Origin: a virus
Virus record (IMG/VR): IMGVR_UViG_3300004369_000158
Span: 1 to 22,856 of that record
Direction: 5' to 3' (one strand)
Length of the DNA stretch: 22,856 bases
Numbering within the stretch: the first letter of the stretch is position 1; each line of letters begins with the position of its first letter. The notes beneath the pieces were generated by a model. That model did not search any database, was not told the origin of the DNA, and saw only the letters and a list, made by a program, of their open reading frames with translations. Positions 1 to 12,456 of the stretch are shown piece after piece. Made by a program: the position numbers and the translations under genes.

Positions 1-339
1 GTGAATACCAGCAGTACGACACACGGCATGATGACACTTGATAGCATCAACTTTGGTGCTGCTGTTGAAAGAAGTCTCACCACTATGAACGTGGAAGACT
101 TCAGCATTCACAGTGCCGTTGAGAGCAGACCAGAACTCATCACACAGTTGGTTTGCCAGCAGAATACGTGGGGCAACCACAACGATGGTCTGAGGGGTCT
201 CAGCAGCAAGCAGACGGCGCTCAGTGTCCTTGATCATCACAAGGGTCTTGCCGCCGCCTGTAGGCACGATCACCTGACCGTGAGTGTTGTTCTCAAGAGC
301 AGCAAGAGCACGCTGCTGGTGAGGACGAAGGGTGAGCAT
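1..339 (-). CDS. Superfamily II (DEAD/DEAH-type) helicase, N-terminal part; 3' end beyond window
   Basis: The minus strand from the ATG at 339-337 stays open to base 1, giving 113 residues of a truncated gene. The protein starts MLTLRPHQQRALAAL, the usual opening of phage and bacterial SF2 helicases. The Walker A motif VPTGGGKT is near residues 30-37, and the motif Ia-like APRILLANQ is near residues 66-74. The DEAD/DEAH box and the C-terminal RecA lobe would lie outside the window. SF2 helicases of this type unwind or remodel DNA or RNA using ATP; T4 UvsW is one phage example, but I cannot say this is UvsW. The gene has its own promoter (365-373) after a terminator, so it is probably transcribed separately from the ParB-like gene. 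Base composition is clearly more GC-rich than in the fibre genes: the line 181-240 has 34 G/C of 60. Confidence 0.85.
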   Translation of the reverse strand, partial: MLTLRPHQQRALAALENNTHGQVIVPTGGGKTLVMIKDTERRLLAAETPQTIVVVAPRILLANQLCDEFWSALNGTVNAEVFHVHSGETSFNSSTKVDAIKCHHAVCRTAGIH

Positions 340-364
340 CGGGCGTCTTGCTGAGTACCTTGTT

Positions 365-373
365 ATTATAGCA
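365..373 (-). promoter_or_regulatory. Extended -10 promoter for the helicase gene
   Basis: On the minus strand the sequence TGC-TATAAT lies just after the terminator hairpin at 377-398. It matches an extended -10 element (TGnTATAAT). No TTGACA-like -35 box is visible 17-18 bases upstream, because that position falls in the G/C stem of the terminator. A start about 7 bases downstream would give a leader of roughly 20 bases before the ATG at 339. Host sigma70-type recognition is inferred. Confidence 0.6.
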
Positions 374-398
374 GAAAACCGCCCCCTAGGGGGCGGTT
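374..398 (-). terminator. Rho-independent terminator after the ParB-like gene
   Basis: Bases 377-398 form a perfect palindrome with 11-base arms (each AACCGCCCCCT as read 5'->3'). On the minus strand it runs into TTTTC. It lies about 20 bases past the stop codon of the ParB-like gene (418-420). The perfect symmetry leaves no unpaired loop, so the real hairpin loop would be formed by opening the central pairs. The AAAA on the other flank means it could work weakly in the opposite direction too. Confidence 0.8.
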
Positions 399-402
399 AG
401 GA

Positions 403-416
403 CAGTTCATGAACTG
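403..416. repeat. Short perfect palindrome between stop codon and terminator
   Basis: CAGTTCATGAACTG is a perfect 14-base palindrome just downstream of the ParB-like stop codon. It could be a small protein-binding site or an extra hairpin before the terminator. It may also be chance. Confidence 0.35.
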
Positions 417-417
417 G

Positions 418-1395
418 TCAACGATCGACCCTAATCAGTTCAGTTTCTTCACCAATAACTTGGGGATAGATGTAGCTGATATCAAAAAGTCGATATGAAG
501 CACCAACCTTCAAACGTTCTTGAAATGCTTCTTCAAACCAATCGTTGTACTGATCAATGATCTTCAAACCAGACTCACGAACCGCTTCTGCTTCTTCGGC
601 AGGAGTATCTTTCAAGTAACCAACACCAACAATTTCGGAAGTCTTCGAGGTACACTTTGCTTCAAGTGCGTCAATGACAGCTCGCTTGAGATAAGTCTTG
701 TTACCACTGACGTTGACAGGGACAACACGAACTCGGTTCGTATATGCTTGAGACACTCGCTGAACAACAGTCTTGGGATCTACAGATTCCATAGTTTTGG
801 AAGCACGGTTAGATTTCAGGACATCTTGAGCGATATTCGTCACGATCTCCTGAGAGAAAGAGTGGGGGATGTAGTTGATCCAGTCAACACATTGACCCTG
901 AGTAGGAGTCTCTTCCTGAAGAGCAACCCAACAACTAAGGCGCTTCCTGAAATCTTCTCGGGTAGCAGCCTTGCTAGGAGGATGATCGTTGGCACCGAGA
1001 CCAATCTCATCCCAGACATCATTCCAGGTAAAACCTTCCTTCGGTTCAACAACGTTGAACACCCAGTATTCCATACCCAAAGAAAGGATTGCCTCAAAAC
1101 GAGTGAATCCATCATAGAGGCTGTCGTTGGTTCCTAGAAAAGGAGGTTGAGCATCAAGAAGAACACCCTTGATCTTGATAGAGTTAGCAAGGTTCTGAAC
1201 GTTCTCTCGGTTGGTCCCCAGTTCACGGGCGAGGTTGATTACCTGTCCGTTTTCGTTGGTACGAATCACATCAGACAGAGCAACTTGCTCACGACCAACA
1301 CACACAAAAGTCCGACCTTCGGGAAGAGGAAGGGACTCAAACCAATCCACATCGGGGCAAGAAGCAGACGTGGAGAGTTTACGATACGTAGACAT
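418..1395 (-). CDS. ParB-like nuclease/DNA-binding domain protein (325 aa)
   Basis: The recognisable part is residues about 62-107. NVQNLANSIKIKGVLLDAQP and then LYDGFTRFEAILSLG fit the ParB N-terminal (ParB/sulfiredoxin-like) fold: a helix ending in 'S(I)...G', a beta strand, and the DGxxR signature (D95-G-F-T-R99). Proteins with this fold bind or cut DNA, or hydrolyse nucleotides (CTP in true ParB). The function of phage-encoded copies is mostly unknown. The remaining ~210 residues, rich in charged helical sequence, show no motif I recognise. The start is the ATG at 1395, directly after a tandem 11-base repeat; no clear Shine-Dalgarno sequence is visible. A TTGACA/TATATT promoter lies upstream and a terminator downstream, so it appears to be a single-gene unit. 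GC content resembles the helicase gene and differs from the fibre genes (line 721-780: 29 G/C of 60). Confidence 0.75.
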   Translation of the reverse strand: MSTYRKLSTSASCPDVDWFESLPLPEGRTFVCVGREQVALSDVIRTNENGQVINLARELGTNRENVQNLANSIKIKGVLLDAQPPFLGTNDSLYDGFTRFEAILSLGMEYWVFNVVEPKEGFTWNDVWDEIGLGANDHPPSKAATREDFRKRLSCWVALQEETPTQGQCVDWINYIPHSFSQEIVTNIAQDVLKSNRASKTMESVDPKTVVQRVSQAYTNRVRVVPVNVSGNKTYLKRAVIDALEAKCTSKTSEIVGVGYLKDTPAEEAEAVRESGLKIIDQYNDWFEEAFQERLKVGASYRLFDISYIYPQVIGEETELIRVDR

Positions 1396-1419
1396 AATTT
1401 ACTTAGCGAATTTACTTAG
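1396..1419 (-). repeat. Tandem 11-base direct repeat in the ParB-like gene leader
   Basis: AATTTACTTAG occurs at 1396-1406 and again at 1409-1419 (13-base spacing); on the minus strand it reads CTAAGTAAATT twice. The second copy directly touches the ATG of the ParB-like gene and occupies the position where a ribosome binding site would be. Further small tandem repeats (TGTCGC twice at 1428-1439, TGAC twice at 1441-1448) follow in the same leader. It is a candidate operator or translational control site, by inference only. Confidence 0.45.
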
Positions 1420-1454
1420 TGGTCAGTTGTCGCTGTCGCTTGACTGACTTAGGT

Positions 1455-1483
1455 AATATAGCACTAAAAAGGGGGTCTGTCAA
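1455..1483 (-). promoter_or_regulatory. Sigma70-type promoter for the ParB-like gene
   Basis: On the minus strand TTGACA (1483-1478) is separated by exactly 17 bases from TATATT (1460-1455), with TG one base before the -10 (extended -10). The -35 hexamer matches the consensus in all six positions. Expected transcription start is near 1448, giving a leader of about 50 bases. The promoter overlaps the preceding terminator, and TTGACA spans the hairpin loop. Confidence 0.8.
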
Positions 1484-1489
1484 CCCCCT
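1466..1489 (-). terminator. Rho-independent terminator at the end of the late fibre cluster
   Basis: On the minus strand AGGGGGT and ACCCCCT (1489-1483 and 1476-1470) form a 7-base stem with a six-base loop TGACAG. The T-tract TTTTT follows, its first T (1470) also closing the stem. It begins 7 bases after the TAA of the 131-aa gene (1497-1499), so it is well placed to end the late structural transcript. Confidence 0.85.
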
Positions 1490-1496
1490 GTGCCAC

Positions 1497-1892
1497 TTAT
1501 TCAAGTGGTTGTGGTGTCGGTTCTCTCAGTCCATTGTGTCCGTCGTTACCACGAACATATAAACCATTAGAATAAATTACATACTGTACAAAATAATCTG
1601 GATCACCATCTCTTGATCCTGGGAAATTATCTCTACAGAACTCCCAAGCATTCTCTTCTGTATCAAATTCAACAAATATGAATTCATTATACAGCATTTT
1701 ATCAAAGATTTCAGGTGCTTCTGACTGTAGATTCAAATAATATGCTGAGTAAATAGCATTTGCTTTTGTAGCATCATCAACACCATCAGGACCAGTAGTT
1801 CTAATTAAAACCATGGTTGATTGTGTTGCTGCCGTGTAATGAATCATCCAGTCTTTAAAATTTCTGGTTGTTAAGTATCCTGCTGCCGACAT
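1497..1892 (-). CDS. Hypothetical protein (131 aa), last gene of the structural cluster
   Basis: I do not recognise a family. The protein is acidic and aromatic-rich, with one central stretch FIFVEFDTEENAWEFCRDNF (about residues 71-90) that looks like a small alpha/beta fold. It has no signal peptide, membrane segment or low-complexity fibre repeat. The start is well supported: AGGAG (1903-1899) lies six bases before the ATG, and only one base separates the ATG from the TAA of the 309-aa gene. It is therefore likely co-translated with the chaperone-like protein and expressed late. A terminator follows directly. A role in tail-fibre assembly or as a minor virion protein is a guess from position only. 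Confidence 0.7.
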   Translation of the reverse strand: MSAAGYLTTRNFKDWMIHYTAATQSTMVLIRTTGPDGVDDATKANAIYSAYYLNLQSEAPEIFDKMLYNEFIFVEFDTEENAWEFCRDNFPGSRDGDPDYFVQYVIYSNGLYVRGNDGHNGLREPTPQPLE

Positions 1893-1893
1893 A

Positions 1894-2823
1894 TTAAACT
1901 CCTAAATTCAAATTATCGATAACGGCACCAGTGAGACCGTCATTAATTCTATACTGTTCGACTTTATCCCAGATAGTTTTTGCTACTGGAATACCATCAG
2001 ATAGTCTTGCTTTCTCGCTTAGTGCTGCTTGCTTGATACTACCAACTAAAATTTCTGTAGCATATGTTCCTGTACCTTCAATTGTGAAAGCAAAATGTTC
2101 AGGGGCAGAAAGATATTCAGTTGTATGCTCTGGATCAATTTTGTGATATTTAAATGGATCAATGGGCCACCTAAACTCTTCATCATAAATTAAGAAATCC
2201 AGAACATCTTCAAAATCATTTGGACCTTTAACATTTTCACGAATCCATTGTCTGTAAATAGTCCATAATGCCAATTCACCTTCAAAAGATTCTGTAGCAT
2301 CAGGAAGTTGTGTCCAATCAGAACTTCTTAACAGCAATTTAATCTTGTTTTGCTTATCTTCATCAATAACAGCAAGATATTCTGTTGCTGTGGCAACATC
2401 CAAGATTGCTTTCGATCTAATAACTTCATCATCAATTTGCTGAACCTGTAAAGCAGCTTTCATAATGTTAAACAATTCAGTCACTTGACCAAGATCAAGA
2501 TCTTTATACTCATATCTTTGCCATTTGGACTGTTTGGTATTAAAATCAAACTTTAGTTTTTCTTTTTCTAAAAGATACTCGCCATCTTCAAAAATAGAAA
2601 AACTAACAATTCTATCATTATCATTAGACCATTCATCTGGCATATGATTGTGTAAGTTGCTGTTAACAGTATCACTCAATTTGCTAGCAACATAGACATA
2701 TTCACCAGATTGTTTAGTTCTTACAACCATGAGACGATGTAGGGCATCCCACTCTAGGATAGGCTTACGCTCTTCAGGTGGTAAGATTCTCTCAAATTGA
2801 AAATCGTCAGGATTGAATGCCAT
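1894..2823 (-). CDS. Protein with phage tail-fibre assembly chaperone motif (309 aa)
   Basis: Residues about 160-222 carry the pattern of phage tail assembly chaperones (Phage_tail_APC type, Pfam PF16778): RSSDWTQLPDA (167-177), then LWTIYRQWIRE about 10 residues later, and a terminal RWPIDP (218-223). In that family the core is SDWTQLPD...YRQ.LR...WP..P, usually in a protein of 60-200 residues. Here it sits inside a longer protein with about 160 residues before it and 85 after. Such proteins help fold or attach tail fibres and are usually encoded beside the fibre they serve, which here would be the 1921-aa fibre immediately upstream. The ATG at 2823 follows a CTAAATA box with 20 bases between. 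The Shine-Dalgarno is weak (GAG). The N-terminal part (WDALHRLMVVRT, EYVYVASKL) is not recognised. Confidence 0.7.
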   Translation of the reverse strand: MAFNPDDFQFERILPPEERKPILEWDALHRLMVVRTKQSGEYVYVASKLSDTVNSNLHNHMPDEWSNDNDRIVSFSIFEDGEYLLEKEKLKFDFNTKQSKWQRYEYKDLDLGQVTELFNIMKAALQVQQIDDEVIRSKAILDVATATEYLAVIDEDKQNKIKLLLRSSDWTQLPDATESFEGELALWTIYRQWIRENVKGPNDFEDVLDFLIYDEEFRWPIDPFKYHKIDPEHTTEYLSAPEHFAFTIEGTGTYATEILVGSIKQAALSEKARLSDGIPVAKTIWDKVEQYRINDGLTGAVIDNLNLGV

Positions 2824-2833
2824 TTCTACTCTA

Positions 2834-2850
2834 CATTTATAACTATTTAG
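2834..2850 (-). promoter_or_regulatory. Late promoter box(es) CTAAATA and TATAAATG before the 309-aa gene
   Basis: The minus strand reads CTAAATA at 2850-2844, and TATAAATG follows at 2841-2834, one base off the T4 late consensus TATAAATA. The TAA inside CTAAATA is the stop codon of the 1921-aa gene. CTAAATA-type late promoters have been described for T4-like cyanophages. Either element could place the start of the 309/131-aa mRNA. Confidence 0.6.
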
Positions 2851-5800
2851 AATGCTTTAATCAACCACTTGACCCATGTATATGGTGTTACAAGTGGAAC
2901 ATCTGTCTGTGGATCTAGTGATGGAGTTGGTACTAACTGCTTACTTTGTGATAATGTGAAAGTTCCAGGTAAAACTTGAATACCAACACCCAAAGCAGTA
3001 AAGGTAACGTCAACACTACTATTAACACCACCAGCAAAACTATTTAAAGCAGTACTTGCTGTTCCACCAGTTTCGTTATTGCCATATCCATAAACATTAT
3101 CAACAGAACTAGGATCTGTTAAAGAAACATAATGGGTGTGTTTTAATTTTTGTGATGGGCTATAAGATTTAACGGTTACATCTTTTCTAGGAATATCTAA
3201 AGATGTAACAAATTTGAGGGCATCACCTTCACCGCCAGCAGTTCCACTATTTCCTGGGAATGGTTGATTAGCAAGATCAATATAATCATCAACCTCATTG
3301 TAATTAGTTCCACCAGCTTTCATGTTATCTTGAGTGACAGTAACAGAACCATAAGAACCCATAGTTTGTGTTCCTTCATAACCTGGGTTTGTGCCTGCTC
3401 CCCACTCACTAGTGCTACCATTCCACCATGCTGGTGTTCTGGATCCACAATACTGTGATTGTGGCAAGTTATTGCTATCTAAGGTGTAATTGTCGGTATG
3501 ATAACCCCATAGGTTGAAGGCAATCGTTGTACTAGAACTGAATGTAGCAGCACTAGAAGATCCAATATTATTAGTACCAACAGCAACTGACTGACTATAT
3601 CCGCCTTGACCACCCCAGTTAATTCTACCTTTAAATGATCCTGGGTCTGCTTTACCAGTAATTAAATCGTGGAAATGTAGTGGTACATCATATACTTTTT
3701 CCTCTTTCAAACTCACTGGACAGACAGCAGATCCAATAGTAGTAAATTCAATCGTGCCTTGTACATCACTATATCCACTAGTAGTTACAGTAGCAATACC
3801 AAAAAAGTCAGAAGATTGTGCTGGTTGACCTGTTGCTGGTTGATCAACTTGATCAATTTCACCAACACTAGGATCACCAAGATCATTAACAAACCAATAA
3901 CCACCAAATGATCCTGGTTCAGCATTACCAGGAGCTCCAGATTGCTTTGTTCTGTTATATTCTGGTGTCAATCCTGGTGATGCTAGCTGACTACCATCAA
4001 TAACACCAGTTCCCTTGAGATATCTGTTTCTCATGTCAGGTAATCTGAAATAAGTAACAGAACCCACAACCTTGGCGCCATAAGTATACTCAAGAACAGA
4101 ATAGAGAGCGGGATAATCATTTGGATCTAGATATTCTCCATTACAGTACATAAAACCATGGAATCTGGAGTTGAGTTTGCCATCCAAAACACCCCAGTTG
4201 TCACTTTGAGTAGCATCTTGGAACACAGGCATCATGCTACCAACAGGCATACCATCTAACTTAGTGCTATACCTAACCTGAGAAGATCCAACATACTTAA
4301 CTGGAGTAATCGAACTGTACCATTGACCATAAATTGGATCTTGTACATCTGCTGGTGTCTGTACACTGAAGGATGTATTGAATGATCCAACGTAAATCTG
4401 ACCAACTCTAGTAAATCCTTGAATAGGAGATGATAACAATCTTACTTTAATTGTTGTTCCATTTGATACAGTGGCGGGAGCACTAATTGGATAAGCGTTC
4501 CATGAAGCGCCGTTATTGAATGAAACTTCGAGTCCATTCGAAGCAAACATTGCTACAGAAACGCCGTTGGCCAATCCACTGATTGTGATGTTTTCAGCAG
4601 ATTCTGTATATACACCACCAGCACTAGCAATTTGTGGTGTAAAAGCAAATGGAGTTGGATCTGTACCAAATTGTCCTGCTGTCAAAACATTCCAAGTTGT
4701 TTCGTAGTATCCAGCAGTAGATCCAGACAAACCTGTTTTTGTGTTAAATACTCTAGTTTCACCAACATTTCCAGAAGTGGTATAGACCAATGCCACTGTA
4801 TCAAAGTTTTCTAAAGTTGTTTGTGTAACTCCAGGAGCAAGTAAAATATTATTCTTTTTAATTTGTGGCAATTGTCCCAAAGGATCAAAATCTCCAGCAC
4901 CAGACTCAACAATAAAATCCACAACAGTATCAATACCTTGAATTAGAACTGTGTTGCTTTCATATTCTGCCAGTAAATCTGCCCCAGTTACCGTAATCCA
5001 AGTAAACCCATTTGGTGTGCTATCTGATTCAACACCTGTTGAGACATTCCATTCAATACTATCACCAGTACCAACTGTAATCTGTGTAGTTACTGTACTA
5101 ATAGTAGATGATGTTGAATAAGTAGAAGGTGACGTGATTCTAATTCTCAGTGTTTGACCATTTTCAATTTGAGGATTGGATGTTCCAGAAACCCAAGCGC
5201 CACCATTAATTTGGACTTCAGCACCATTAGTAGCAGTCACATCGACTGGTACAGTAATGCCAGAAATAGTTACTGTTTCACTATACACTAGTGTACTTGG
5301 ATTAACGCCAGTAACATCAGTGAAGAAGAACGGAGCTGGATCTGTATCTGGTGGAGCTCCTGTATTGATATTCCAGTTGGCAGGAATATTTCCTACCGTA
5401 ACATTGACAGTGTACGTGTTATTATAAACACTACCAACCGTCGCTCTTAACTGTACATATTCATTATTAGAAACTGTACTTGCTCCCCATGGTCCACAAG
5501 TTCCTGCCGTAGGACCACTACAAACTCTAGCAGTGGAAGTAAAACCAGGAGAAGACAATTGAATAGGAACAGAACCTGTAATACCAGTAATTTGTACAAT
5601 ATTAGATTCTGCGTTGCTGTTGATTTGTGCTCCATCAACTTCACTAAAACTATATGGGTTTGGACTAATATCCTGCTGTGGGAATTCAATATAAACAGCA
5701 CCAGCAGAACGTCCAGGCGCTCCTAATCCAGATGGATTAGCAGAAGATAATGGAGTAACATAGGTAGAATTATAATACACACCACCACCACTGCCGCCAG

Positions 5801-8612
5801 TAGCATCTAAGTCACTCGTTTGAATTACACCACCATCAGGATCTAATTTTTGAGTTAATAGAACACCAGCGGATCCATCATATCCACCACCTCCACCACC
5901 AGGACCAGCACCTTCTCCAGTAGCATTAGGAGCATTATCTCCAGGCAGATTTAAATTAATAGTTGAGGTAGATAATGGTCCATATCCAAGGTGGTTGCCA
6001 TAAGCATTAGCTGCTGGAATTGTAGTATCGCCGCCAGCACCAGATCCACCGCCGCCGCCACCTGCCATAGCGATAAGAACGTTGTTTGATAATGTAATGG
6101 CAGCGGCGCCGCCACCACCTCCACCACCACCAGACTTATCACTAGGACCAGAATTACCACCATTACCACCATAGCAATATCCAAATCCACCAGCGCCTCC
6201 GCCGCTGCCTTGAACATAATTTTGTCCGTCAAGACCATGATCAGGAGCATAAACCCTAATTTTATAATCTGGTTCTCCACCAGCATTTAATGGAAATGCT
6301 GATACTGGAATAGATACAGTTCCTCTAAAAATATTGCCATTTCCTCCAGGACCACCTTCTGAATTAGGAGCATCATCTCCACCTTTACCGCCACCAGCTC
6401 CAACTAATGTTAGATAGAAGAATGTAGATCCAAAAGCAGGAATGTCATATTCAATGTAATTTGATTGATTGTCTCCCTGCCAAGATGCTTCAACAAAATC
6501 TCCTTCATTGTTAAATTGACCTGTATAAATTCTAAATGTATCAGATATTGTACCAATTTGATAAGTTAATTGTTGTACAGCGCCAGATGTTACTGAAGCA
6601 TTTTGTCTTACAAATAAAGTTGTGTCAGTTGGTTGTATTGTTACTGTACTGCCCCAGTTAACACCATCTCTACTGAGAGTTCCAACACCATTGGTAATGG
6701 TAGCAGTTGTAGTTACGTCAAGACCATCAATCGCTACAGAAGCAATATGTTCTTGACCAGGGTTTGACAAATATACTGGATCAGCATGGAAAGTATATGG
6801 TGTATTTCTTGCTGGTCTAGTCGTCAACGTCATTGTTGCTGTCTTGTCAGCATACGTTGGCGAAGAAGGTCCGTTAGTTGGGTTTCCAACAGAAGGATTA
6901 CCGCTGGGAGGACCCTGTAATCTTACTGATGCTGTGGCAGCAGCACCATATGTTGTGCTAGCATTTCTCTTCAAATTAAGAGTGTCGCCATTCTGTACAG
7001 ATATTTGCTGTACCCAAGCACCAGTATTATTTTTTCTAATTTCTCCACCAGTTCCATCAATGATGGCATTAATTTTTACTGTCTGACCATTTAAGGTAGC
7101 AACTTTATTTTGAATATTACTGATAGATTCGCTAGTACCACTATATGGAGATGCTAGGTCACCATATGATCCAGAAGTATATTCAGTTCCAAGTCCACTG
7201 ATAGGCATATCAGTAAAGTACATAAACCCTGCTTCTGCCAGAGTGTTATCATCTGTAGTAGAAACAGTAATTTTTTGGTACTCTTGAATAGTAAACTGAG
7301 CATTAACAGCGGCAGGATTAGTTGATGGTGTTGGTACAGTTATCAAATCGCCCGCTAGATAACCATAACCAGGGTCGGCAATGAATACACCAGTAGCAAA
7401 ATTATCGGTAGATCCTACCATTTGCTTGACTTTCATTCCACTACCACTTCCACCAGTAGTGCTATATGTTTGACCATAAACAAATCCAGATCCAGTAACA
7501 AATCCTGCTTCACTAGCATTTGTTTTCACATTATATGTAAAAATAGGAGCAGCAGTAATAGTATTGGGATATCTGTCTACTTCAGTCCAGATTTGCCAAT
7601 CATCTGTTACGTTACCATTTGATTGTACAACCTGATAATTTCCATATGTATTGTTGCCGCCATATGTTCCAGAATTATTATTTTCATATCCCCCAGCTAA
7701 GGTATCACCATTAACGGCAAATATTGCTAGAGTTCCATCAGATTTGTCTGTGTAATTCGGTCCATTTACAATTCTGGTATTTACTACATCATTTAATACT
7801 AATCCAGTTAATGATTGAACCCAACTTCCAGTTCCATTTTTTCTAATAGTAATATCACCTGTAGCCGTTGCTCTTAAAACAGCATCACCATCAATATTAT
7901 TGATATTAATATTTTGAGTATAATAACTTACACCACCGTCAGCAGGAATCTTAGCGTCAACTCTATCAGTAAATTGATAGGATGGAATTGTAGTGTCTTG
8001 TGCTCTGGTTGTAATTGACCACGTTCTGCTAAATGACGCTGCTGGTTGACCAATGTTGGTTCCCCAGGTTTCATCAGAAACTGTAAAAGTAACAGTAGTT
8101 GCTGTAGTATACCAGTTTGGCGTAGTAACTCTCAACTGAATCTTATCGCCAGGTTGTAATCCACCCGTACCATTTACATAGTTAGCAGTGATACTTGTTC
8201 TCCAAGAATCAAAAGCACCGTTTCTATAAATTCTAAACTGTGCTGTAGTATTGGCAGTATTATTATTCTTAGGGCCGTTAGATACTGCCGAGATTGTAGC
8301 AGGAATTGGTACTTCGATATCAGAAATATCAATTACTTGAGAATAATATGTAGTATTCCTCTGGAAAGTTGTAGTACCACCAGTACTAGTGGTTCCATTG
8401 AATGCTCCAGTAAATCCAGACTGGTTTGTAAAAGCAAATGTATTTGGTGTTGCATCAGGAATTTTTGTACCAAATGTGATGCCATCAGGATCCGATCCAG
8501 TACCAATTTTTACGTTAACTGTGACAGTTTCATTCCAATAATCTGGAGTAACGTATCTAACTTGGATATTATCCCCGTTGCTTACATATACGGGAGTTGA
8601 TGAGAATGGCAT
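2847..8612 (-). CDS. Giant mosaic tail fibre: Ig-like repeats, glycine-rich domain, tail collar domain (1921 aa)
   Basis: Order of parts, with residue numbers estimated from base positions: 1-40, a half Ig-like module (VSNGDNIQVRYVTPDYW); about 60-720, several beta-rich modules with the signature 'I.I.KNG.GSWVQ...NGD.L.LR'; about 730-975, a glycine-rich domain with long Gly runs around VLIAMAGGGGGG; about 984-1420, four tandem Ig-like modules; about 1455-1550, a phage tail collar domain (GSMMPVFQDA...GFMYCNGEYLDPNDYPALY...YFRLPDMRNRYLKG). A C-terminal tip contains HFHD (about 1646) and HTHY (about 1825) and ends YTWVKWLIKAF. The collar part resembles T4 gp12-type fibres, where HxH pairs bind a metal ion on the trimer axis. 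It is probably a trimeric receptor-binding fibre on the virion. The ATG at 8612 has AGGG about eight bases upstream. The candidate chaperone gene is immediately downstream. Confidence 0.85.
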   Translation of the reverse strand: MPFSSTPVYVSNGDNIQVRYVTPDYWNETVTVNVKIGTGSDPDGITFGTKIPDATPNTFAFTNQSGFTGAFNGTTSTGGTTTFQRNTTYYSQVIDISDIEVPIPATISAVSNGPKNNNTANTTAQFRIYRNGAFDSWRTSITANYVNGTGGLQPGDKIQLRVTTPNWYTTATTVTFTVSDETWGTNIGQPAASFSRTWSITTRAQDTTIPSYQFTDRVDAKIPADGGVSYYTQNININNIDGDAVLRATATGDITIRKNGTGSWVQSLTGLVLNDVVNTRIVNGPNYTDKSDGTLAIFAVNGDTLAGGYENNNSGTYGGNNTYGNYQVVQSNGNVTDDWQIWTEVDRYPNTITAAPIFTYNVKTNASEAGFVTGSGFVYGQTYSTTGGSGSGMKVKQMVGSTDNFATGVFIADPGYGYLAGDLITVPTPSTNPAAVNAQFTIQEYQKITVSTTDDNTLAEAGFMYFTDMPISGLGTEYTSGSYGDLASPYSGTSESISNIQNKVATLNGQTVKINAIIDGTGGEIRKNNTGAWVQQISVQNGDTLNLKRNASTTYGAAATASVRLQGPPSGNPSVGNPTNGPSSPTYADKTATMTLTTRPARNTPYTFHADPVYLSNPGQEHIASVAIDGLDVTTTATITNGVGTLSRDGVNWGSTVTIQPTDTTLFVRQNASVTSGAVQQLTYQIGTISDTFRIYTGQFNNEGDFVEASWQGDNQSNYIEYDIPAFGSTFFYLTLVGAGGGKGGDDAPNSEGGPGGNGNIFRGTVSIPVSAFPLNAGGEPDYKIRVYAPDHGLDGQNYVQGSGGGAGGFGYCYGGNGGNSGPSDKSGGGGGGGGAAAITLSNNVLIAMAGGGGGGSGAGGDTTIPAANAYGNHLGYGPLSTSTINLNLPGDNAPNATGEGAGPGGGGGGYDGSAGVLLTQKLDPDGGVIQTSDLDATGGSGGGVYYNSTYVTPLSSANPSGLGAPGRSAGAVYIEFPQQDISPNPYSFSEVDGAQINSNAESNIVQITGITGSVPIQLSSPGFTSTARVCSGPTAGTCGPWGASTVSNNEYVQLRATVGSVYNNTYTVNVTVGNIPANWNINTGAPPDTDPAPFFFTDVTGVNPSTLVYSETVTISGITVPVDVTATNGAEVQINGGAWVSGTSNPQIENGQTLRIRITSPSTYSTSSTISTVTTQITVGTGDSIEWNVSTGVESDSTPNGFTWITVTGADLLAEYESNTVLIQGIDTVVDFIVESGAGDFDPLGQLPQIKKNNILLAPGVTQTTLENFDTVALVYTTSGNVGETRVFNTKTGLSGSTAGYYETTWNVLTAGQFGTDPTPFAFTPQIASAGGVYTESAENITISGLANGVSVAMFASNGLEVSFNNGASWNAYPISAPATVSNGTTIKVRLLSSPIQGFTRVGQIYVGSFNTSFSVQTPADVQDPIYGQWYSSITPVKYVGSSQVRYSTKLDGMPVGSMMPVFQDATQSDNWGVLDGKLNSRFHGFMYCNGEYLDPNDYPALYSVLEYTYGAKVVGSVTYFRLPDMRNRYLKGTGVIDGSQLASPGLTPEYNRTKQSGAPGNAEPGSFGGYWFVNDLGDPSVGEIDQVDQPATGQPAQSSDFFGIATVTTSGYSDVQGTIEFTTIGSAVCPVSLKEEKVYDVPLHFHDLITGKADPGSFKGRINWGGQGGYSQSVAVGTNNIGSSSAATFSSSTTIAFNLWGYHTDNYTLDSNNLPQSQYCGSRTPAWWNGSTSEWGAGTNPGYEGTQTMGSYGSVTVTQDNMKAGGTNYNEVDDYIDLANQPFPGNSGTAGGEGDALKFVTSLDIPRKDVTVKSYSPSQKLKHTHYVSLTDPSSVDNVYGYGNNETGGTASTALNSFAGGVNSSVDVTFTALGVGIQVLPGTFTLSQSKQLVPTPSLDPQTDVPLVTPYTWVKWLIKAF
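4350..5665 (-). repeat. Four tandem Ig-like modules of about 95-120 residues in the 1921-aa fibre
   Basis: Each unit opens with a phrase like PYSFSEVDG, PFFFTDVTG, GFTWITVTG or PFAFTPQIA. It continues with 'S.TV.ISGI..PV', an 'INGGAW'-like turn and 'NG.TL.IR..S...Y', and closes with a 'W.V.TG'-like strand. The second unit (TVTISGITVPVDVTATNGA) is the clearest. Units have diverged and are recognisable only at protein level. The same type of unit ends the 385-, 513- and 535-aa proteins. Confidence 0.7.
5690..6410 (-). repeat. Glycine-codon tract (glycine-rich domain of the 1921-aa fibre)
   Basis: The region is dominated by GGN codons (CCN triplets on the plus strand). Gly runs of up to about nine residues are separated by short inserts. 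It matches the architecture of the tracts at 9905-10508 and 11745-12370. Confidence 0.8.
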
Positions 8613-8633
8613 CGATTACCCTATCACACTACA

Positions 8634-8828
8634 CTATTCCTTAGTGTTATTTAGGTCCGATTGTCTGACATTAATCCATGGACCATTATTGATTCTGACC
8701 TGAATGGGTTTGTCAGCAGTAATCTCAACTTTTTCATTAGAATCAATTTCTGGAGAGAAAATATTTGACCTGTAAAAAGGATCTTTATCAGGATGTAAAT
8801 TATAAGTTACTGGAAATTTTTCGTTCAT
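8634..8828 (-). CDS. Small ORF (64 aa) homologous to the C-terminal half-module of the adhesins
   Basis: The ATG at 8828 is preferred to an upstream in-frame TTG at 8840. It overlaps the stop of the 69-aa gene as ATGA, and GGAG (8838-8835) lies six bases before it. The C-terminal part, VEITADKPIQVRINNGPWIN followed by VRQ, matches the last residues of the 513-aa (NVNGTGWKYVRQI), 535-aa (VRKNGGTWQNVRSI) and 385-aa proteins, but with about ten extra residues before a TAG stop. It is in the same reading frame as the 1921-aa gene that follows and is separated from it by TAG, five codons, TAA and one codon. The 1921-aa protein begins with the sequence that would complete this module. It could be a functional small subunit or the detached front end of the big fibre. 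Confidence 0.7.
   Translation of the reverse strand: MNEKFPVTYNLHPDKDPFYRSNIFSPEIDSNEKVEITADKPIQVRINNGPWINVRQSDLNNTKE
8648..8654 (-). promoter_or_regulatory. Late promoter box CTAAATA for the 1921-aa fibre
   Basis: CTAAATA lies inside the last codons of the 64-aa ORF (Asp-Leu-Asn-Asn), 35 bases before the ATG at 8612. Of the four boxes in the window, this is the only one not containing the stop codon of the preceding gene, and it gives the longest leader. Confidence 0.6.
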
Positions 8829-9034
8829 AATGTACTCCAATAATGAGAAGAAATCGACTGAACTAAAGCATCTTCGGAAGACAAATCATCTCCCTCAACG
8901 AAAAACTGAGTTAAGAAATCAGTTGCCACCAACTCCTCGTCCTCATATGTTTTCACACACTTAGTTACTCCAATTTGTTTCATAAGTGGTCTAATTTCAA
9001 TAGAATCTACAATGATCTCTCTAGTAACAGTCAT
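8825..9034 (-). CDS. Small acidic hypothetical protein (69 aa)
   Basis: I do not recognise a family. The sequence is acidic (YEDEELVATDF, VEGDDLSSEDALVQ) with an N-terminal beta-like start MTVTREIIVDSIEI, and shows no membrane or signal segment. It starts 16 bases after the 513-aa adhesin gene and its CTAAATA box, without a clear Shine-Dalgarno sequence. It ends in an ATGA overlap with the 64-aa ORF, so the two are very likely translated together. A role as a small assembly factor for the neighbouring adhesins is possible but not shown by the sequence. Confidence 0.7.
   Translation of the reverse strand: MTVTREIIVDSIEIRPLMKQIGVTKCVKTYEDEELVATDFLTQFFVEGDDLSSEDALVQSISSHYWSTL
8835..8838 (-). 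promoter_or_regulatory. Ribosome binding site that fixes the start of the 64-aa ORF
   Basis: GGAG on the minus strand, six bases before the ATG at 8828-8826. It lies downstream of the alternative TTG at 8840, so it supports the shorter protein. Confidence 0.7.
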
Positions 9035-9047
9035 GGCGTTTTATTAT

Positions 9048-9054
9048 TATTTAG
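9048..9054 (-). promoter_or_regulatory. Late promoter box CTAAATA before the 69/64-aa genes
   Basis: CTAAATA on the minus strand. Its TAA (9053-9051) is the stop codon of the 513-aa adhesin. Only 13 bases separate it from the next ATG at 9034, so the predicted leader is extremely short. Confidence 0.6.
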
Positions 9055-10592
9055 ATCTGTCTTACATATTTCCATCCAGTACCATTGACATTCACTTGTA
9101 ATCCACCATCACTGCTTTTTATTTCAACTGGTATTTGTACATCATTTACACCAACTTGACCTGTAGTCAAATATTGGGTAGGAGTATTTGTAATGGTATC
9201 AATATCTTCAAACGGGTATTGGTTCGCTACATCACCAATATCAAAATCTTCGGCAATCCTTGGTGCTTTGGTTATAACATTAACATTAAAAAATGATGGA
9301 CCTACAGTGACACCCACAGTTTTTGTATTAGTTTTTCCATAAATTCCAGTAGATCCAGAATAATCAGTGTTATAAGCCAACGTATTTGTTCTCATCTTCA
9401 GTGTTTGACCATTATAAACTGTTAATGGATTGGAAAACTGACCGCCTGTGCTAAAAGTAGTACCAGAAGATGATGTAGAAACAGAAATGGGAATATCAAT
9501 TCCACTAATTGTACCCAATGTTAGATCAGTTTGAGTAGATGGGTTTAGATTATTAAAACTGGTATTCCAAGAGTTAGTTAAAGTGTTGTCGTTCTTAGAA
9601 TATACAGTAATCTGAGCAGTAGTACAAACACTATTAAAACATGCTGTTAACGTATATGTTCTAGATGCTGGACTGGTGCCATCGGCATTAGATTGAGGAA
9701 GATTTGTTATATTTAAACTGTTTTGTCCTGTTACGGTATAAGTTTCGCCAGCAGAACTAGTCACTGTTAAACTGTTAGCGTCAGCAACGTTCCATTGGAG
9801 TGTCGTACTGTATAAGGGAATGCCAGTGAGACTATATTGTTGTACAGGATTGGCACTAAAAGAAAAAATTTCTGGATAAACACTAGTATATGTAACTCTA
9901 ACATATCCACCACCACCATTTTCACCTTGAGAGAATATAGATGCTACGGCGCCGCTAGAATAATATCTACTACCAGCGCCACCACCACCACCGCCACCGT
10001 TTTGAAAATCACATCCACCACCACCGCCGCCAGCACCTCCAGCGCCGCCTCCGCCGCCGCCACCACCAGCGCCATCGCCACAACTAGCGCCATTACCATC
10101 GCCACCACCACTTACGCCAAATCCTCCACCGCCTCCCCAACCGCCAGCGGTGCCGCCGTTCGACCCACTAACCTCCCATGCTCCACCGCCGCCGCCGCCT
10201 CCACCGCCAGCACAAATAATCCATCCGTAAATATTACAATAGACGCCAGATCCACCGCCGCCGCCTCCACCAGATCCAGAACATCCAGTAGCAGATCCAC
10301 CACCGCCACCAGAAATATCACCAGAACTTCTACCAGTTCCCCTACCAAAACATCCAGGACCACCTTGTCCACCGCCACCAGGACGACATTGTAGTGTTCT
10401 AGCAACATAATTTTGTAGAGTAAATGCTCCATATCTACCGTTTCCACCACTACCGCCGTTGCCGCCAGAGTCTCCCCCACCATTGCCACCACGACCACCA
10501 GCAGCATAAACACGTACATTATATGCTGTGTTTGGAACAGTTACATTAAAGTTGCCGCCCCGATTTCCACTATCGTAATTAGTTAGCGCCAT
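9051..10592 (-). CDS. Glycine-rich adhesin-like tail protein with Ig-like C-terminus (513 aa)
   Basis: Residues about 30-232 are a glycine-rich domain (runs of seven to nine Gly) with the core IICAGGGGGGGGGAW. It contains several cysteines, in CRPGGGG, GPGCFG, ATGCSG, VYCNIYG, ASCGDG and GGCDFQ. After YVRVTYT comes an Ig-like region with a Cys pair (TLTACFNSVCTT), then a full module (ISGIDIPISV...NGQTLKMR). Next are the linker PRIAEDFDIGDV and TPTQYLTTG, and a terminal half-module ending GWKYVRQI. Glycine-rich domains of this kind fold as bundles of polyglycine II helices in the gp38 adhesin of Salmonella phage S16, so receptor binding at the fibre tip is a reasonable inference. The gene overlaps the preceding 85-aa gene by 14 bases. 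It is a paralogue of the 535-aa protein. Confidence 0.8.
   Translation of the reverse strand: MALTNYDSGNRGGNFNVTVPNTAYNVRVYAAGGRGGNGGGDSGGNGGSGGNGRYGAFTLQNYVARTLQCRPGGGGQGGPGCFGRGTGRSSGDISGGGGGSATGCSGSGGGGGGGSGVYCNIYGWIICAGGGGGGGGGAWEVSGSNGGTAGGWGGGGGFGVSGGGDGNGASCGDGAGGGGGGGGAGGAGGGGGGCDFQNGGGGGGGAGSRYYSSGAVASIFSQGENGGGGYVRVTYTSVYPEIFSFSANPVQQYSLTGIPLYSTTLQWNVADANSLTVTSSAGETYTVTGQNSLNITNLPQSNADGTSPASRTYTLTACFNSVCTTAQITVYSKNDNTLTNSWNTSFNNLNPSTQTDLTLGTISGIDIPISVSTSSSGTTFSTGGQFSNPLTVYNGQTLKMRTNTLAYNTDYSGSTGIYGKTNTKTVGVTVGPSFFNVNVITKAPRIAEDFDIGDVANQYPFEDIDTITNTPTQYLTTGQVGVNDVQIPVEIKSSDGGLQVNVNGTGWKYVRQI
9905..10508 (-). repeat. Glycine-codon tract of the 513-aa protein
   Basis: A near-continuous GGN triplet tract with mixed third bases (GGT, GGC, GGA). 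The plus strand reads as CCACCACCGCC-like sequence and makes long spurious open frames. Small in-frame gains or losses would leave the gene open. Confidence 0.85.
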
Positions 10593-10836
10593 CTTCTGCT
10601 TCTGACAACAGTGTGAGTAAGTATGCTTGGTATTCTTCTCTAATTTGTTTAATAAAGTCCTCTGGCGTAATTCCAGTTTCTAATACATACTCTTCAACTA
10701 CAGCATCAATATACTCAGTTAAAGTATTATCACCTCTTTTAGCAAAATAATCAGCAAACGCCATATTGAATGGAGTTGCAGCCAGGAAAACTTTTTGTAA
10801 TTTATGAATATTCAAATTTTTATTTGGGTACATCAT
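10579..10836 (-). CDS. Small acidic hypothetical protein (85 aa)
   Basis: I do not recognise a family. The sequence looks alpha-helical and acidic (EYIDAVVEEYVLETGITPED, FIKQIREEYQAYLLTLLSEAED), with no membrane segment. It starts with two consecutive ATGs (10836 and 10833), only 12 bases after the 535-aa adhesin gene and 9 bases after a CTAAATA box, with no Shine-Dalgarno sequence. Its end overlaps the start of the 513-aa adhesin by 14 bases, suggesting translational coupling to that gene. A cognate chaperone or inhibitor of the adhesin is a guess from position. Confidence 0.7.
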   Translation of the reverse strand: MMYPNKNLNIHKLQKVFLAATPFNMAFADYFAKRGDNTLTEYIDAVVEEYVLETGITPEDFIKQIREEYQAYLLTLLSEAEDGAN

Positions 10837-10845
10837 TTTTATTAG

Positions 10846-10852
10846 TATTTAG
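10846..10852 (-). promoter_or_regulatory. Late promoter box CTAAATA before the 85/513-aa genes
   Basis: CTAAATA on the minus strand. Its TAA (10851-10849) is the stop codon of the 535-aa gene. It lies nine bases before the first ATG of the 85-aa gene and shares GATCTAAATA with the box at 9048-9054. Confidence 0.6.
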
Positions 10853-12456
10853 ATCGATCTAACATTTTGCCAAGTGCCACCGTTCTTTCTAACCTGAACG
10901 TTAGCATTATCAGTTTTAATTTCAACAGGAATTTCAACATCGTTGACAGATATTTGTCCTGTAGTCAAGTATTGTGTTGGAGTGTTGGTAATCAAATCAA
11001 TATCTTCATATGGATATTGATTTTGAACGTTGCCAATATCAAAAACCTCTTGGATTCTTGGGGCATCAGTTTTTAATTGGAATGTGAAAGAATATGTACC
11101 GACAGTAATGCTAATATTTTTTATGTTTTCCTTACCATACACAGCAGTAGAACTAACACCAGTGATATCTGTATTATATGCTAATGTCGTAGATCTTAGT
11201 CTCAAAATATCTCCATTGTAGATAGTAATTGGATTACCATAAGATCCACCATTTCTACTAAAAGTCACACCAGAATCACTACTAGTCAATGTGGTTGGAG
11301 CATCGATTCCAGCAATACCATTTACAAAAATTGGAGAGTATTGAGTATTTGGTTCTCCAGTAAATGAAGTAGTCCAAGTATTCGTCGAAGAAGGTGTTGT
11401 GTCATTATAAACATTTACCTGCTTAGTTAATGTAAGTGTGGCACCACTGACAGAAGTAGCATATACTCTTAAATAAACAGTATCTGGAGACACAGAACCA
11501 ACAACCGATTGCTGACCATGATTCCATTGCCCAGACCAACCTGTTCCTGTGGCAATAGTTGTCCACCCAGATGATCCGTTTTGAGAATATGCTAGATAAG
11601 CAGATGTACAATCAGTTGTTCCATAGTTAATACTAAGCGTACTAGCGTTTGTTGTGTGAATATTACCACTATTAGTTCCATTTGTGGATGATATTGTTAG
11701 ATTATTAATTTGTGGGTTATACCTATTCCAGCTAATAGAAGCATATCCCTGTCCACCATTAGTGCTGTTATTTCCTAAGAATGTTGTATATGAAGAAGAA
11801 TATCTAGATCCTCCACCACCTCCACCGCCGCCAGGATATGATAAATCTTGTCCACTGCCACCGCCGCCGCCGCCATTACTACCAGCACCACCACCACCGC
11901 CTCCAGCGCCATCTCCACCTTTATCGCCGCCTGTGCCGCCATTTCCAGAAGGAACAGTCCCAGAAACAGCAGACCAACCACCGCCTGCTCCACCGCCAGG
12001 AGCTGTACCAGAGTTGTGAGATCCTCCACCACCACCGCCACCTCCAGCGGCGACAATAACATAACCCCCAGCATGACTATCATAAACAGCAGTGGCGCCA
12101 CCACCACCTCCACCACTACCAGACCACCCATTACATCCAGCATAACCACCCCTACCACCACTCAATCCTGGGCCAGGGTTTGGTCCAGGACTCCCAGATC
12201 CCCCTCCACAATTTACACTAGCGCCATTACCACCAACACCACCAACGTAAAAATTTAAGTTTCTCGTTTTAAATCCAACCAGACTAAATTGACCTGTTCT
12301 TCCAGATCCAGCACCGCCGCCTGGTCCACCAGCGTCTAATCCACCTGAACCGCCTCTAGCACCATAAAGGGTAATTACAATATCTCCATCGTTATCGGTA
12401 AGACTAACAGGTTGTCCAGTAGGACCAGACCAAGCATTAGAAAAAGGTGTTGGCAT
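10849..12456 (-). CDS. Glycine-rich adhesin-like tail protein with Ig-like C-terminus (535 aa)
   Basis: Residues about 30-245 are glycine-rich, with GGGGGGATAVYDSHAGGYVI then VAAGGGGGGGGGS, and close with SRYSSSYTTFLG. The phrase GGGGGGAT...(I/V)AAGGGG is also the hallmark of the glycine-rich domain of the animal receptor kinases ALK/LTK. An Ig-like stretch follows (about 250-350). Then come a full module (GIDAPTTLTSSDSGVTF...NGDILRLRSTTLAYNTD), the linker PRIQEVFDIGNVQNQYPYED, TPTQYLTTG, and a terminal half-module ending GGTWQNVRSI. From the module onward it aligns closely with the 513-aa protein, while the front end and the Ig region differ. AGGAG lies six bases before the ATG, which overlaps the 385-aa stop codon by one base (TAATG). 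Probably a virion adhesin. Confidence 0.8.
   Translation of the reverse strand: MPTPFSNAWSGPTGQPVSLTDNDGDIVITLYGARGGSGGLDAGGPGGGAGSGRTGQFSLVGFKTRNLNFYVGGVGGNGASVNCGGGSGSPGPNPGPGLSGGRGGYAGCNGWSGSGGGGGGATAVYDSHAGGYVIVAAGGGGGGGGSHNSGTAPGGGAGGGWSAVSGTVPSGNGGTGGDKGGDGAGGGGGGAGSNGGGGGGSGQDLSYPGGGGGGGGSRYSSSYTTFLGNNSTNGGQGYASISWNRYNPQINNLTISSTNGTNSGNIHTTNASTLSINYGTTDCTSAYLAYSQNGSSGWTTIATGTGWSGQWNHGQQSVVGSVSPDTVYLRVYATSVSGATLTLTKQVNVYNDTTPSSTNTWTTSFTGEPNTQYSPIFVNGIAGIDAPTTLTSSDSGVTFSRNGGSYGNPITIYNGDILRLRSTTLAYNTDITGVSSTAVYGKENIKNISITVGTYSFTFQLKTDAPRIQEVFDIGNVQNQYPYEDIDLITNTPTQYLTTGQISVNDVEIPVEIKTDNANVQVRKNGGTWQNVRSI
11745..12370 (-). repeat. Glycine-codon tract of the 535-aa protein
   Basis: GGN triplets with runs of up to nine codons, separated by short aromatic or polar inserts. 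Like the tract at 9905-10508, it creates proline-rich shadow frames on the plus strand. Confidence 0.85.

Follow-up and report, generated by a model that had tools for sequence, protein, structure and literature searches.

An intergenic element of 35 bases in a cyanophage genome fragment very probably represents a compact and recurrent transcription-unit boundary, in which one set of bases would serve, in a fixed register, both as an intrinsic terminator and as the sigma-70-type promoter of the next unit. The fragment is a 22.9-kb IMG/VR record (the window, by which the whole analysed stretch of 22,856 nucleotides is meant); matches to its first 3 kb were obtained in 148 phage records, each of which carries Synechococcus, Prochlorococcus or cyanophage in its name, and by similarity the fragment can be assigned to a T4-like Synechococcus phage. 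The main genes of the window are located on the minus strand, and their arrangement, together with the components of the element, is given in Table 1.

Table 1. Features of the window in the order of minus-strand transcription
Feature	Position	Strand	Basis or detail
Very long reading frame	22856-16221	-	ORF list
Collar-domain and virion protein genes	between the long frame and the tail fibre gene	-	profile matches
Short tail fibre protein, phrog_4924	2847-8612	-	PHROG match
Tail assembly chaperone, phrog_4697	1894-2823	-	PHROG match
Final gene of the fibre cluster, phrog_4883 (function unknown), with the hairpin 7 bases past its stop	1497-1892	-	PHROG match
Terminator hairpin, AGGGGGTT GACA GACCCCCT	1470-1489	-	8 pairs, 5 G-C, -14.2 kcal/mol
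U-tract TTTTT, first T paired with the stem A	1466-1470	-	sequence
-35 element TTGACA, at the hairpin tip	1478-1483	-	promoter scan; -35-like hexamer kept in relatives
-10 element TATATT, spacer 17, TG at 1463-1462	1455-1460	-	promoter scan
Predicted transcription start region	1448-1450	-	inferred from the spacing to the -10 and the onset of the conserved leader
5' leader hairpin GTCAGTCAAGCGACAGCGACAACTGAC, conserved and with covariation among relatives	1422-1448	-	folding, leader alignment
Downstream gene ("ParB-like"), phrog_27790, unknown function	418-1395	-	PHROG match
Second hairpin, AACCGCCCC CTAG GGGGCGGTT, tail TTTTCT, past the ParB-like gene and ahead of the helicase gene	377-398	-	terminator scan
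TATAAT, TG at 373-372, starting 17 bases past the centre of the second hairpin	365-370	-	terminator scan
Start of DEAD/ResIII helicase gene, running off the window	1-339	-	profile matches

Anatomy of the element

On the minus strand, the element reads AGGGGGTTGACAGACCCCCTTTTTAGTGCTATATT and begins seven bases past the last stop codon of the fibre cluster, which ends at 1497, the bases from 1489 to 1466 being AGGGGGTTGACAGACCCCCT and TTTT with AGTGC and TATATT following. Two signals are found in these bases. A stable, G-C rich hairpin with a U-tract immediately after it, as characteristic for intrinsic terminators, folds as RNA into an eight-pair stem with the loop GACA (-14.2 kcal/mol, z -3.0), and hexamers at the 16-18 bp distance of sigma-70 promoters agree with the -35 and -10 consensus in 11 of 12 bases, with a spacer of 17 and a TG before the -10, this promoter (1483-1455) being the best among the 41 promoter-like sites listed for positions 1-12000. 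An earlier note on this DNA had proposed one 35-base element that is both terminator and next promoter, with a perfect TTGACA followed by TATATT at a spacer of 17, and both proposals are supported by the sequence; its further statement that TGACAG forms the loop holds in that the -35 is located at the hairpin tip, but the unpaired loop is GACA and both T's of TTGACA are paired in the fold (T-A and U-G).

Taken separately, neither promoter-like sites nor terminators exceed their chance number (41 versus 36.2 expected and seven versus 6.3 expected, respectively). On the other hand, composite elements, defined as hairpins that carry at their centre a -35 matching in at least 5/6 and that have a stem of at least six pairs with four G-C, a T-tail and a -10 of at least 5/6, occur once in the window and in none of 600 dinucleotide shuffles. 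The non-chance feature is the coincidence of promoter and terminator in register, not their number.

Initiation near 1448, as also put forward in the earlier note, is supported at the level of sequence, with a start predicted at about 1450-1448 and the conserved leader hairpin of relatives beginning there. The leader starts with GTCAGWCA six to eight bases past the -10 (a distance read by eye in locus L127) and forms a hairpin; as it begins at the predicted transcript start of the promoter, it supports this promoter. Among 17 leaders nine are distinct, and in these all cells of eight pairs hold standard pairs, which is reached by 1 of 500 shuffles, with pairing falling to 17-39% in slid controls; two pairs have both partners changed, which 46 of 500 shuffles equal, and the leader covariation is modest. 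The leader hairpin might shield the RNA at its 5' end or serve as an autoregulatory site. Considered as a repeated DNA-binding site, the leader motif was found at one place in S-CAM3 and on one IMG/VR contig, and a genome-wide parS-like role is therefore unsupported.

Downstream of the gene, a second, perfect hairpin, AACCGCCCCCTAGGGGGCGGTT, is located upstream of the helicase gene and followed by TTCTGCTATAAT, the DNA after this terminator (398-377) reading TGCTATAAT. No -35 is found on the loop of this hairpin, and the register of its promoter is nearly the same as that of the 1489-1455 element. Each of the two intergenic terminators found in this stretch is fused to a promoter, and three further terminator-like matches in the window are located inside genes.

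Conservation at copies of the downstream gene

A peptide-pattern search with the single protein retrieved no relatives of the downstream gene, and a three-sequence alignment retrieved 18 from IMG/VR, two of which come without upstream DNA, so that 16 loci were assessed. At all 16 loci and in the window, a hairpin that carries a -35-like hexamer is located directly upstream of the gene, with the -10 located 16-17 bases past the -35 and with TTGACN as the hexamer in all assessed loci except L137 (TTGCGA); the promoter of L127 reads, by eye, TTGACA-16-TATAGT. The 17 copies, several of which are near-identical and not independent, have 12 distinct strings with about nine different stems, such as AACACCC/GGGTGTT (core ACACCC/GGGTGT), GAGAGGG/CCCTCTC, CCCAGGA/TCCTGGG and GGGGGC/GCCCCC. 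As pairing is kept in all of them, covariation of the stem is evident around a promoter that is retained.

S-CAM3 (L141) is a weak case, its hairpin having six pairs, one irregularity and no T-tail. By eye, no such element is seen at the copy in S-MS29, which is an additional relative from the named phages, and the score is therefore 17 of 18 assessable copies, window included. Equally, at the comparable junction of Sf-FR1, between fibre and helicase, a TTGACA promoter is present with no hairpin that could be recognized by eye. In a scan of whole records, the G-run stem pattern (GGGTTGACAN{1,5}CCC) occurs in 22 of 25 and the reversed control pattern in 0 of 25, 21 of the 25 having been picked beforehand for a match and the window being another; the pattern is absent from S-CAM3, S-MS29 and Sf-FR1.

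Enrichment and register in cyanophage genomes

The association extends to the genomes of nine complete T4-like cyanophages, in which hairpin positions were surveyed around 619 promoter-like sites in 4-base bins from -80 to +80. T-tailed hairpins are centred on the -35 in 16 cases versus at most four in any other bin, and an alternative count of hairpin positions gives a similar picture. None of 160 promoters of the control phages T4, T5, lambda and Felix O1 has such a hairpin on the -35, and these four, considered as carriers of the -35-on-hairpin form, yielded none. Syn9 has no case with the -35 on a hairpin either.

Viewed from the terminators, 28 of 470 have a TG-extended -10 that starts 17-21 bases past the hairpin centre, versus 0-3 in 13 other intervals of equal width, which leave out the mirror peak upstream of hairpins; half of these cases (14 of 28) come from one genome, ACG-2014f. 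An in-register -10 is found at 58 of the 470 cyanophage terminators versus 5 of 155 control-phage terminators (three in T5, two in T4). A -35 of at least 5/6 lies on the loop in 16 of the 58 terminators with an in-place -10 (at least 5/6) versus 19 of the 412 without (Fisher p 2.7e-7), and where no -35 is present on the loop, the -10 is often TG-extended. Furthermore, TTGACA ranks first among 180 letter permutations at terminator tips (7 of 625, 13 genomes; mean 0.93), with ACTTGA as the runner-up (6).

As an observation of its own, the mirror peak in the nine cyanophages consists of T-tailed hairpins whose centres are located about 15-24 bases past the point where a TG-extended -10 starts, and these hairpins are located right after predicted transcription starts.

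Hairpins without a T-tail are found on the -35 as well (10 versus a mean of 2.1 and a maximum of 6 elsewhere), and as they are enriched there about five-fold over the mean, termination alone is insufficient to explain them. This enrichment, together with a near-identical hairpin of this kind at three places in ACG-2014f, would fit a regulatory protein that binds the palindrome around the -35 with the hairpin being incidental. We consider such an operator highly improbable, given that the sharper peak belongs to the T-tailed hairpins and that the stems of the relatives differ widely yet stay paired, unlike a sequence-specific operator.

Occurrence beyond cyanophages

Hairpins of the form GGGG-TTGACA-CCCC in IMG/VR have, among the matches listed, an in-register -10 in 94 of 129 and a -10 together with a T-tail in 53 of 129, versus 3 of 119 and 1 of 119 among the matches listed for the scrambled loop TAGTCA, matches with too little DNA after the hairpin having been left out of the IMG/VR set. 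A collection of 84,980 cellular genomes contains 52 stretches with the T-tailed G-stem form, and a -10 is present in 35 of 53 matches. An intergenic match to the window element is also found in Enterococcus Saphexavirus (83% over 36 bases, E 0.06). The terminator-promoter fusion has probably arisen many times.

Two side observations concern individual cases. Four Lachnospiraceae contigs (L488, L491, L517 and L532) have a -35-in-loop element in common, GGGGTTGACATACCCC together with a T-run and GATAAT, which suggests a conserved cellular case. The Saphexavirus match is located at 1501-1536 of L535 (MK721189 40850-40885), and 52 Enterococcus phage records match, mostly weakly.

Where intergenic space is small, a terminator and a promoter might overlap by chance in a short gap, and such overlaps do occur, if rarely, in cellular genomes as well. 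Set against the peak at offset 0, the fixed register, the permutation and scrambled-loop controls and the covariation in relatives, chance overlap is nevertheless extremely improbable.

Genomic positions

According to annotation, 15 of 16 sites are located at gene junctions, and some of these reach into the final bases of the preceding gene. Sites are found after regA (S-CAM3, Syn1 and P-SSM2), before hli genes (S-CAM3, S-PM2 and Syn1), ahead of the nrdC block (Syn1) and the td block (Sf-FR1 and ACG-2014h) and after a tail protein (ACG-2014f), the remaining sites being surrounded by small genes that are mostly unknown; where different phages share a junction, as after regA and before hli, the stems differ. 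The exceptional site, ACG-2014h 181726, is located inside the annotated nrdC start, which may have been annotated too early, since nrdC has 501 bp in ACG-2014h versus 246 bp in Syn1. ACG-2014h also has a composite with the loop TGCAC at the helicase start, the same place as in the window; its -10 is located a few bases inside the annotated start, and the alignment with the window helicase starts about 20 bases later.

The regA junction was considered as a universal home of the element and rejected, with 32 of 78 junctions having a terminator and 9 of 78 passing a loose composite test (80 loci sampled from at least 593 relatives, two dropped with fewer than 90 bases after the gene). Several of the IMG/VR regA terminators (L283-L362) share hairpin tips such as TCCAC or TCAAC, with TATAAT or TTAAATA following at another spacing, and this spacing may mark a different promoter type.

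A possible regulatory role was proposed in the earlier note, namely the silencing of the downstream gene in the late phase, when heavy late fibre transcription would run into the overlapping promoter and shut the gene off. The element follows the fibre genes, and with the footprint size of RNA polymerase, a terminating polymerase would by geometry cover the promoter from roughly -36 to +1. However, the terminator would limit read-through across the promoter and, as it would stop incoming polymerase ahead of it, interference would on balance be reduced, whereas silencing would require this balance to be reversed; furthermore, with similar elements before the hli, nrdC and td blocks and after regA, late fibre transcription is no common factor. 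Late silencing is unsupported and decidedly unlikely, insulation being the likelier function.

The downstream gene as a probable moron-like unit

The label ParB-like given to the downstream gene finds no support from ParB profiles. The protein has no significant Pfam or NCBIfam match, matching phrog_27790 only, and a PDB profile search retrieved one weak MarR match and no ParB. Equally, its structure model is poor (mean pLDDT 63, low confidence) with no PDB match at E 0.001. It contains a DGxTRxEA..LG motif, which we take to resemble ParB.

The gene is present in six of 50,697 phage records, derived from two phage kinds, and is positioned after fibre genes in the window, among small genes in S-CAM3 and among tRNAs in S-MS29; several of its IMG/VR relatives are located at another junction, with the C-terminus of RegA upstream (read by eye). 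This is the sporadic distribution, at differing places in related genomes, that characterizes a moron. The other characteristic, an own promoter and terminator, is present as far as sequence signals go, with the composites 1489-1455 and 398-365 flanking the gene; as both intergenic terminators are fused to promoters, the gene is bounded like a moron. The term, denoting a transcriptionally autonomous gene, has been applied to genes of the cyanosiphovirus P-SS2 in the available part of that report (PMC2784084). The downstream gene resembles these morons in being bounded by terminator and promoter on both sides and in having relatives at another junction, and differs in that terminator and promoter form one element here and two there.

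Proposed mechanism and polymerase fate

Sequence, enrichment, register, stem covariation and the beginning of the leader at the predicted start were computed here, and from them we infer how termination and initiation would proceed in the cell and which purpose the element would have. The hairpin tip would serve as the -35 site, with the -10 about 17-21 bases past the hairpin centre; this geometry would account for the register, since with the -35 in the loop and the 17-bp spacer taken up by 3' arm and U-tract, about 45 bp would serve both signals and the stem bases would be free. The RNA of the incoming fibre transcript would fold into the hairpin and end in the U-tract, so that the upstream polymerase would not cross the promoter, and transcription of the downstream gene would be initiated separately, at about 1450-1448, by a host-type RNA polymerase. 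Changes in the stem would be tolerated as long as it remains paired, with the -35 being kept. Most likely, the function of the element is the insulation of a self-contained, moron-like gene in a genome with little intergenic space.

Alternatively, the polymerase might stay on the DNA after release of the fibre RNA and, as the promoter overlaps the terminator, rebind sigma and restart at the next gene, whereby upstream transcription would feed the downstream unit. The terminator-promoter distance is zero here, with a fixed register, and in vitro E. coli polymerase is retained and reinitiates after intrinsic termination, with reinitiation amounting to 37% of terminations and to 55% with added sigma70, the authors expecting a dependence on the distance between terminator and promoter (PMC6978380, available part). 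Equally, sense coupling at promoters near terminators has been proposed (PMC6978322, available part). Such polymerase recycling predicts that a terminated polymerase can serve a nearby promoter, but the available parts of the two articles concern in vitro templates and discuss no natural zero-distance element. The same anatomy is, however, predicted by simple compaction. Late cyanophage transcription may use another sigma, which would need to be exchanged, and altogether we regard hand-over of the polymerase as rather unlikely. That T4-like cyanophages chain their units by zero-distance modules that pass the terminated polymerase on, a natural and conserved form of polymerase recycling, is an unlikely extension of this idea.

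Relation to known systems and significance

Compared with known signals, the element resembles an intrinsic (Rho-independent) terminator in its G-C stem, short loop and U-tract and differs in that loop and following bases also spell a promoter; in the same way, it resembles a bacterial sigma-70 promoter in TTGACA-17-TATATT with a TG before the -10 and differs in having the -35 and the spacer inside a terminator. The nearest precedent found is the promoter P_asr of Clostridium saccharoperbutylacetonicum, which overlaps the loop of the sol operon terminator and drives an antisense RNA (PMC9402939, available part); the promoter region overlaps the loop of a terminator region in both cases, but P_asr is antisense, whereas both signals have the same direction here and the fixed register is repeated. 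In the available part of PMC3037559, cyanophage promoters and terminators were predicted by separate programs, and in the available part of the LUZ100 phage transcriptome (PMC10134795) no such overlap was found. A description of a fixed-register terminator-promoter fusion was not found in the open-licence literature, and as the search was limited to open-licence papers, novelty is provisional: each signal alone is textbook knowledge, and it is their fusion in fixed register, recurring across T4-like cyanophages and occurring also in other phages and a few bacteria, that was not found described. The finding suggests a simple rule for locating transcription-unit boundaries and cargo genes in abundant ocean viruses and equally provides a natural substrate for asking whether a neighbouring promoter re-uses the terminated polymerase.
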